Of a stretch of DNA of 64,000 bases, positions 40,449-56,706 are shown piece after piece (positions within the stretch are counted from its first letter, which is position 1; every line of letters starts with the position of its first letter). A program made the translations under genes and the position numbers. The DNA is from Archangium lipolyticum. GTDB lineage: Bacteria > Myxococcota > Myxococcia > Myxococcales > Myxococcaceae. The stretch is taken from the NCBI RefSeq assembly GCF_024623785.1, contig NZ_JANKBZ010000002.1, forward strand, positions 372,001-436,000, written 5' to 3'. Below the pieces are notes generated by a model. It did not search any database. It saw only the letters and a list, made by a program, of their open reading frames with translations, and was not told the DNA's origin.

Positions 40449-40769
40449 TCAGAGCAGCTTGCCAAGTGGGCCCAGGTCGAGGTTCAGGTCCTCCTCCGTG
40501 AGCCCGAACTCCACGCGGAGCCGCTCGATCTCCTCCGCCTGACGCATCAGTGCCGTCCCGAGGCGCTCGATCTCCTCGTCACTCAGTGTGTTGCCCTCCA
40601 TGCGGCGGATGGCCTGCTTCTCGAGCAGCTCGTGCAGCAGCCTGACCAGGGTGAGCACCAGCTGTCCGAGCCCGTTCTTCAGCGTGCCTTCGTCGAGTGA
40701 GAGCCGCCGCGCGGGCGGCGTGAGCTGTTTGCGCAGCGCCGCCTCGAGCTCCCTTGTCTCGCCGCTCAT
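40449..40769 (-). CDS. gvpK: Gas vesicle protein GvpK
   Basis: 106 residues; the sequence TLKNGLGQLVLTLVRLLHELLEKQAIRRME is diagnostic for GvpK. Accessory protein needed for vesicle formation in other organisms. The ATG at 40769 overlaps the stop of the preceding gvpS-like gene (ATGA), so expression is coupled. Confidence 0.92.
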   Translation of the reverse strand: MSGETRELEAALRKQLTPPARRLSLDEGTLKNGLGQLVLTLVRLLHELLEKQAIRRMEGNTLSDEEIERLGTALMRQAEEIERLRVEFGLTEEDLNLDLGPLGKLL

Positions 40770-55295: not shown

Positions 55296-56117
55296 ATGTC
55301 CGTCTCCCCTCCCACTCCCGCGCGATTCTCCTTCCGGTTCGGTCTGCCGCCCTCGCTGGGCAATTCCCTGGCGCGCGACCGGGCCGAGCACCTGGCCTCG
55401 CTCATCGAGCGGGCCCTGGGCCGCAAGGTGGAGGTGAGCGTGGCGGCCAGCTACGAGGCGCTCGCGAAGGACCTGCTGGCGGGCCGGGCGGATGCCGTCT
55501 GGGCGCCGCCCTTCGTGTGCGCGCGGGTGGAGGCCATGGGCGTGCGCGTGCTGGCGCGCGGGGTGCGGCGGGGGCGCTCGTCGTACCGCTCGGCGCTGGT
55601 GGCGCGGGTGGGCTCCGGGCTGAAGCTGGAGACGCTACAGGGCAGGCGGGTGGCGTGGGTGGACCGGGACTCGGTGGCGGGCTACCTGCTGCCGGTGGCG
55701 TACCTGAAGGCCAAGGGGCAGGAGCCGGCCAAGACGTTCGCCTCGCAGCAGCTCACGGGCTCGTACAAGGCCTCCCTGGAGGCGGTGCTGGGCGGCACGG
55801 CGGACGTGGCGAGCGTCTTCTGCCCGCCGGAGTCCACGGGGCTGACGTTCGCGGACGGCGTGGAGGTGGTGCTCCCGGGCAAGGGGAGGGAGTTCGAGCT
55901 CATCGCCTACACCGAGGAGGCCCCGAACGATGGGGTGCCGGTGGGCATGGGCGTGGCGCCGGAGCTGGTGGGCCAGCTGGAGCGGGCCCTGCTGGGGCTG
56001 CACGAGAGCGAGGACGGCAAGCGCCTGTTGGAGGAGATCTTCACGGCGGAGCGCTTCGAGCCGGCCCCTCGCATGGGCTACCGGGCCCTCTACCGCGTGG
56101 CGCTGGCGAGCCTCTGA
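55296..56117 (+). CDS. PhnD-like substrate-binding protein without signal peptide
   Basis: 273 residues of the phosphate/phosphonate (PhnD, COG3221) periplasmic-binding type: [21 protein letters not shown], a [13 protein letters not shown] segment, and [20 protein letters not shown]. It lacks a signal sequence, so it is probably cytoplasmic, unlike transport-linked members. No permease or ATPase gene is nearby. Substrate unknown; might serve a regulatory or sensor role, which is inference. Confidence 0.75.
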
Positions 56118-56154
56118 GTTGCGCCGGGGACGGCGAAGTCCTTTACTCGGGGTC

Positions 56155-56706
56155 ATGCTCATTCCCACGCTCGTAGCTGGCTTCTTCGCGGGAGCCACCC
56201 CCCAGGTGGGGGACGTCGCGCCGGACTTCACGGTGGAGGACACCGCCGGCAAGTCGTACACCCTGTCCCAGATGGTGAAGCAGGGCCCGGTCATCCTGGC
56301 CTTCTTCCCCAAGGCGTTCACAGGTGGTTGAACGCGCGAGCTCTCGGCGTACCGGGACCGGTACGCGGATGTCGAGAAGCTCAACGGCCAGGTCCTGGCC
56401 GTCAGTACGGATGACAAGGAAACGTTGGCGAAGTTCAAGGAGTCGTTGAAGGCGCAGTTCCCGTTCATCCCGGATCCGGATGCGAAGCTGACGAACCTCT
56501 ACGAGGTGAAGACGCCAGTGTTGAAGCTGGCCAATCGCTACACCTTCGTCATTGGAGAGGAGCGGAAGATTCTCAAGGTGGAGTCCGGCAAGGACGCCAT
56601 CGATCCGAACGGGGCGATCGTGTCCTGTCCCATCCGCAAGCCGAAGGCGGCGGAGGCAGGCGCGGACGCGGCGGTGAAGGAGGCAGGAAAGGACGCCGGG
56701 AAGTAG
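56155..56706 (+). CDS. Peroxiredoxin with in-frame TGA at the peroxidatic position, probable selenoprotein
   Basis: Thiol (or selenol) peroxidase of the AhpC/TSA family. Reading from ATG 56155 gives [20 protein letters not shown]... [16 protein letters not shown] and FFPKAFTGG, then TGA at 56329-56331, then [19 protein letters not shown] continuing in the same frame to TAG at 56706 (183 residues counting Sec). The TGA is at residue 59, exactly where relatives have the peroxidatic Cys (FFPKAFTxGC-T). The frame after it keeps high third-position GC and conserved motifs ([12 protein letters not shown]). A hairpin starts 7 bases after the TGA. The simplest reading is selenocysteine; a C-to-stop point mutation is the alternative. 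The short N-terminal hydrophobic stretch may be an export signal. Confidence 0.75.
56338..56382 (+). promoter_or_regulatory. Candidate bacterial SECIS element
   Basis: Stem-loop just after the TGA: outer stem GAGCT/AGCTC and CTCG/CGAG (with one bulged A), an internal loop GGATGT on the 3' side, then GCGTACC/GGTACGC (56347-56353 with 56360-56366) and the apical loop GGGACC at 56354-56359. The apical loop lies 22-28 bases after the TGA, within the window usual for bacterial SECIS. Bacterial SECIS lack a strict sequence consensus, so this is structural evidence only. Confidence 0.55.

Follow-up and report, generated by a model that had tools for sequence, protein, structure and literature searches.

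The locus and its in-frame TGA codon

The window analysed here is a 64-kb stretch of DNA (G000:C2:372001-436000) within the 12.6-Mb genome of Archangium lipolyticum, and it carries a gene that is predicted to encode a selenocysteine-containing peroxiredoxin (Table 1). The ATG at 56155 is in frame with a TGA codon, and reading through this TGA gives a protein that continues for 124 codons to a TAG stop at 56704-56706. The match of the read-through protein to the Pfam family AhpC-TSA covers residues 18-140 (111 bits, cut-off 26) and crosses the TGA, which occupies the position of the peroxidatic cysteine and completes the motif PxxxTxxU. Pro52, Thr56, U59 and Arg128, which make up the PxxxTxx(C/U) motif and the active-site arginine, are all present. 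An earlier, sequence-only reading of this DNA had placed an in-frame TGA at the peroxidatic cysteine of an AhpC/TSA protein and an intact frame of 124 codons beyond it, and both are borne out.

Table 1. Features of the peroxiredoxin locus, with positions counted within the window
Feature	Position	Strand	Evidence
Stand-alone upstream neighbour, phosphonate-type substrate-binding protein (PF12974)	55296..56117	+	Pfam 1.2e-42; no part of a conserved operon
Selenocysteine peroxiredoxin gene (predicted)	56155..56706	+	183 codons and TAG stop, one TGA read through; Pfam AhpC-TSA 4.6e-32, spanning the TGA; a close homologue present in 110 of the 145 genomes searched in the order
TGA within the frame, candidate codon for Sec59, the peroxidatic residue of the PxxxTxxU motif	56329..56331	+	Among 112 homologues, 51 have TGA and the other 61 TGC or TGT
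Entire stem-loop, a putative bacterial SECIS element	56338..56382	+	RNAfold -25.7 kcal/mol
Upper part of the stem-loop: 8-bp helix (56347-56354 paired with 56359-56366), GGAC loop (56355-56358)	56347..56366	+	Paired cells 93.3% in TGA and 62.0% in Cys sequences; compensatory changes
Codon (TGT) of the putative resolving cysteine, Cys158	56626..56628	+	Cys in all 112 homologues, whether of the Sec or the Cys form

The frame is also open 5' of the ATG. A TTG at 56119 is a candidate start that would add 12 residues (window positions 56119-56154), and these, together with the hydrophobic N-terminus of 14 residues, would look like a signal peptide.

The PF12974 neighbour adjoins the peroxiredoxin gene in just two genomes, this one and its nearest relative (G005), and its match to the 'putative selenate' binding protein TIGR04553 is weak (48.6 bits, cut-off 250). 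An operon link with a phosphonate/selenate-type binding protein was rejected, since the neighbour is kept only in the nearest species. The plasmid search gave no match. Scanning the 64-kb window for further read-through TGA frames returned only the apparent end of an ordinary gene, with a start following at 40449, at thresholds strict enough to leave the peroxiredoxin itself unlisted.

Selenocysteine machinery in the genome

The sequence-only reading had named selA, selB, selD and the tRNA-Sec gene as a check on its proposal, and all four are present in the genome. SelA is matched with 478 bits, SelB with 320 bits (above the cut-off), SelD with 379 bits and tRNA-Sec with 73 bits, the last having the anticodon TCA according to ARAGORN. 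The selD gene has a TGA of its own (L068:1531-1533, G000:C47), which follows a CAG codon and precedes the hairpin GCGCAG-GTT-CTGCGC, and SelD of A. lipolyticum is itself a predicted selenoprotein. An automatic call of this selD gene would probably begin 3' of the TGA.

SelA was detected in 128 of the 145 genomes of the order, and because it is nearly universal there, its presence discriminates little. One complete genome without SelA (G076) has a cysteine codon at residue 59. No SelA match was obtained in two genomes with TGA, G049 and G124, whose assemblies are incomplete (80% and 87%).

Exchange of TGA and cysteine codons among relatives

We searched the 145 genomes with the window protein for close homologues, read the codon of residue 59 in each fetched locus, and built the tree from 112 homologue sequences. 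The codon is either TGA or a cysteine codon (Table 1), and never TAA or TAG. In all the TGA copies the frame is open for about 100 or more codons past the TGA, and these copies span three family-level groups. Since 51 of the 112 homologues carry TGA at exactly the same codon with an open frame beyond, the TGA is neither chance nor decay.

The same exchange is found inside the genus. TGA is kept in four of the five other Archangium species; the remaining one, a record of A. lansinium (G002), has TGT and still has SelA. Thus cysteine at residue 59 in relatives and TGA in near strains, the pattern that the sequence-only reading had expected of selenocysteine, are both seen. Decay of the 3' half in close relatives, which that reading had named as grounds for giving it up, is not observed: TGA copies within Archangium give a dN/dS of about 0.14 past the TGA and 0.18 ahead of it, and the second half of the gene is therefore maintained as protein. 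The genome also carries a cysteine paralogue (L036, G000:C2:185201-185746) that is 77% identical to the window protein and is likewise present in G005; this paralogue keeps the full 8-bp hairpin described below.

A second, different Sec-peroxiredoxin is predicted at two further loci of the genus (L052, G002:C1:11259049-11259453; L055, G001:C1:11016292-11016663). It is BCP-like, with YPKADTPG-TGA-T followed by the hairpin GCGG-GTT-CCGC. The G002 genome, which bears the first of these loci, is the one whose orthologue of the window gene has cysteine. An Acidimicrobiia metagenome-assembled genome (L020) contains a similar TGA form.

The hairpin downstream of the TGA

Bacterial SECIS elements have in common an apical loop with a guanosine directly downstream of the UGA (PMC1088965). 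In the window gene, RNAfold reproduces exactly the stem-loop that had been noticed from the letters. Its 8-bp upper helix begins 16 nt, and its GGAC loop 24 nt, past the TGA, so that the UGA is closely followed by a hairpin whose small apical loop has an early G, and most TGA relatives retain this hairpin. The folding energy is low compared with dinucleotide shuffles (z = -2.6). It is unremarkable compared with synonymous-codon shuffles that keep the peptide, 25 of 200 of which were as good, an outcome explained by the near-palindromic nature of the encoded peptide, AYRDRYA. As energy alone is unexceptional by this measure, the hairpin needs comparative evidence.

RNAalifold returned no consensus pairs for either the TGA set or the Cys set, and we used pair counts on the one named helix in its place. 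The helix is more fully paired in 41 distinct TGA sequences than in 55 distinct Cys sequences (Table 1), in counts that are inflated by the relatedness of the sequences. Double-sided changes occur in 5 cells of the TGA set against 0.7 expected, a value that none of 500 shuffles reached, whereas the Cys set has no clear excess. In two homologues (L167 and L168) U-A replaces A-U as the middle pair, even though this turns Tyr66 into Phe and Tyr70 into Asn.

Codon usage follows the same division. Among TGA copies that encode AYRDRY, Arg67 is CGG in 30 of 32, Arg69 is CGG in 28 of 32 and Ala65 is GCG in all 32, while CGG makes up 31% elsewhere in the same genes; in the corresponding Cys copies the counts are 11, 6 and 17 of 23, all of them inflated by relatedness as above. 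Arg67 itself is found in all 51 TGA forms as against 40 of the 61 Cys forms. A tree-controlled test of the association between hairpin and TGA had only four supported pairs and was under-powered (p 0.25-1).

The helix is not uniform among the TGA copies. Six of the eight pairs are formed in seven genomes (G094, G097, G104, G108, G109, G114 and G120) and seven in the A. violaceum-type copies, while three distant TGA copies form three to five pairs and have other predicted folds. Several Cys homologues retain the hairpin, and the encoded peptide is palindromic; for these two reasons we rejected the hairpin as a stand-alone proof of selenocysteine. Our comparison across sequences indicates that the helix is a mark of the TGA forms, though not diagnostic alone. 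Of the claim that the stem-loop marks a selenoprotein, what stands is its preferential conservation in TGA copies; taken alone it is weaker than had been implied, as some Cys homologues have it.

Active site and proposed chemistry

Thr56, Arg128 and Cys158 are invariant in the 112 homologues, and Pro52 is found in all but eight. Cys158 is usually the sole cysteine besides residue 59, and is probably the resolving residue. The best structure matches are peroxiredoxins of the BCP/PrxQ type and AhpE, and the sequence matches agree. Within the AhpC/TSA superfamily, the predicted protein is closest to the group formed by BCP/PrxQ and AhpE. The AlphaFold2 model behind the structure matches is of moderate quality (pLDDT 74, pTM 0.70), and the block around residue 158, with pLDDT about 63, is too weak for geometry.

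A mechanism can be proposed for this enzyme. SelB carrying Sec-tRNA-Sec would meet the hairpin just past the UGA, and the ribosome would insert selenocysteine at residue 59 instead of stopping. Sec59 would then attack and reduce peroxide, and Cys158 could resolve the selenenic acid by forming a Se-S bond. This bond would be reduced again by a thiol reductant, likely thioredoxin or a thioredoxin-like donor.

Evolution of the predicted Sec/Cys switch

On the best tree, which is unrooted, at least 10 switches between Sec and Cys are counted, four of which are forced by well-supported branches. On the same unrooted tree TGA forms predominate in two of the three sampled family-level groups and in the early branches of the third. 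Some Cys forms adjoining TGA forms have the helix left, with seven of eight pairs in L032 and all eight in L036, L037, L094, L096 and L110. Because TGA forms dominate in these groups and early branches, and because some neighbouring Cys forms retain the helix, the pattern fits repeated replacement of selenocysteine by cysteine, with the helix as a relic in the Cys forms. This direction, read from an unrooted tree, contrasts with the table of a 2006 survey, which as we read it gives Cys-to-Sec events for Prx (PMC1794560).

At roughly even odds, we would go one step further. The Sec-peroxiredoxins of this order may form a natural series in which selenocysteine has repeatedly given way to cysteine and an RNA signal dictates protein sequence: S/T-A-Y-R-D-R-Y-A would be held in set codons as long as selenocysteine is used, and once the UGA is changed to a cysteine codon the constraint would be released and peptide and codons would drift. 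The enzyme itself would pair its selenocysteine with a resolving cysteine at a C-terminal place not seen in PrxQ or AhpE.

Discussion

We consider it highly probable (about 0.95) that the window gene encodes a peroxiredoxin with selenocysteine in its PxxxTxxU motif. The sequence-only reading had called it a probable selenocysteine peroxiredoxin, and this is supported by the exchange of TGA and cysteine codons, the selenocysteine machinery, purifying selection past the TGA and the comparison of hairpins.

That the gene is instead a pseudogene, a cysteine peroxiredoxin recently hit by a nonsense mutation while its 77% identical paralogue does the work, has some initial appeal: this genome and G005 do have such a paralogue, and TGA is one substitution away from TGC or TGT. 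Homologues from three family-level groups, however, have this TGA in common and an intact frame beyond it, selection past the TGA is purifying, and neither of the other stop codons is ever found at the site. The chance that the gene is a pseudogene is negligible, and conservation refutes the idea in practice. UGA is the leakiest of the stop codons, and a programmed stop or near-cognate read-through that inserts an ordinary amino acid such as tryptophan would yield a short and a long form. Nothing specific speaks in favour of this. Relatives without TGA always have a cysteine codon here, and no TGG (Trp), CGA (Arg) or any other sense codon; the site is that of the catalytic cysteine, the selenocysteine machinery is complete, and the hairpin lies at the distance of a bacterial SECIS element. 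Read-through of this kind is very improbable.

Rather more room must be left for a selenoprotein that is no peroxidase, namely a redox protein of peroxiredoxin fold that has a thiol-disulfide or a regulatory role. ResA-type oxidoreductases are among the fold matches too, the single other conserved cysteine is at an unusual C-terminal place, and Pro52 of the motif is replaced by Val or Thr in some Sec forms. Against this, PxxxTxx(U/C) and Arg128 are kept, with Thr56 and Arg128 unchanged throughout the homologues, and BCP/PrxQ and AhpE peroxiredoxins are the best matches in both sequence and structure. A function other than that of a peroxidase is thus unlikely, and a selenocysteine peroxiredoxin remains our preferred reading.

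Automatic annotation will probably show such TGA genes as truncated or as pseudogenes. The family offers close Sec and Cys versions of one enzyme, both inside one genus and as paralogues in one genome. Such pairs are a direct setting for asking why selenocysteine is kept or dropped, and how an RNA signal in a coding region limits the evolution of the protein.

Our literature search found no paper on selenoproteins of Archangium or Myxococcus, while Anaeromyxobacter is covered. The window protein can be compared with several known families. PrxU is a Sec-peroxiredoxin. The window protein shares the AhpC/TSA fold with PrxU-type thioredoxin-dependent peroxiredoxins (NCBIfam NF040737), but with 42 bits against a cut-off of 270 it is no member of that equivalog family. 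With BCP/PrxQ (NF006960) and AhpE/BcpB (PDB 2cx3, 5epf, 3drn, 1xvw) it shares a similar-sized core and the active-site threonine and arginine. It differs from BCP/PrxQ in its score (66.9 bits, cut-off 140), from PrxQ in having no cysteine five residues past the peroxidatic position, and from both groups in having one cysteine near the C-terminus and, as predicted, selenocysteine in place of cysteine.

That Sec-peroxiredoxins exist, as the sequence-only reading had stated, is right. Prx selenoproteins with the motif TxxU or PxxxTxxU (PF00578) are described from Anaeromyxobacter dehalogenans, Geobacter metallireducens and Syntrophobacter fumaroxidans (PMC1794560, PMC13188914); A. dehalogenans was listed with three of them in 2006 (PMC1794560), and PxxxTxxU is the motif of known Sec-peroxiredoxins (PMC13188914). 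Since such enzymes are already known, the novelty of the window gene is modest. It resembles them in family, in motif, in the predicted use of selenocysteine for the peroxidatic cysteine and in the stem-loop just past the UGA, and Anaeromyxobacter is a myxobacterium too. It differs in its large-genome Archangium-type host, in the interchange of Sec and Cys inside one genus and in the conserved C-terminal Cys158. What our sequence comparison adds to the known Sec-peroxiredoxins is the apparent repeated switching between selenocysteine and cysteine among close relatives, together with an RNA signal that seems to shape the protein.
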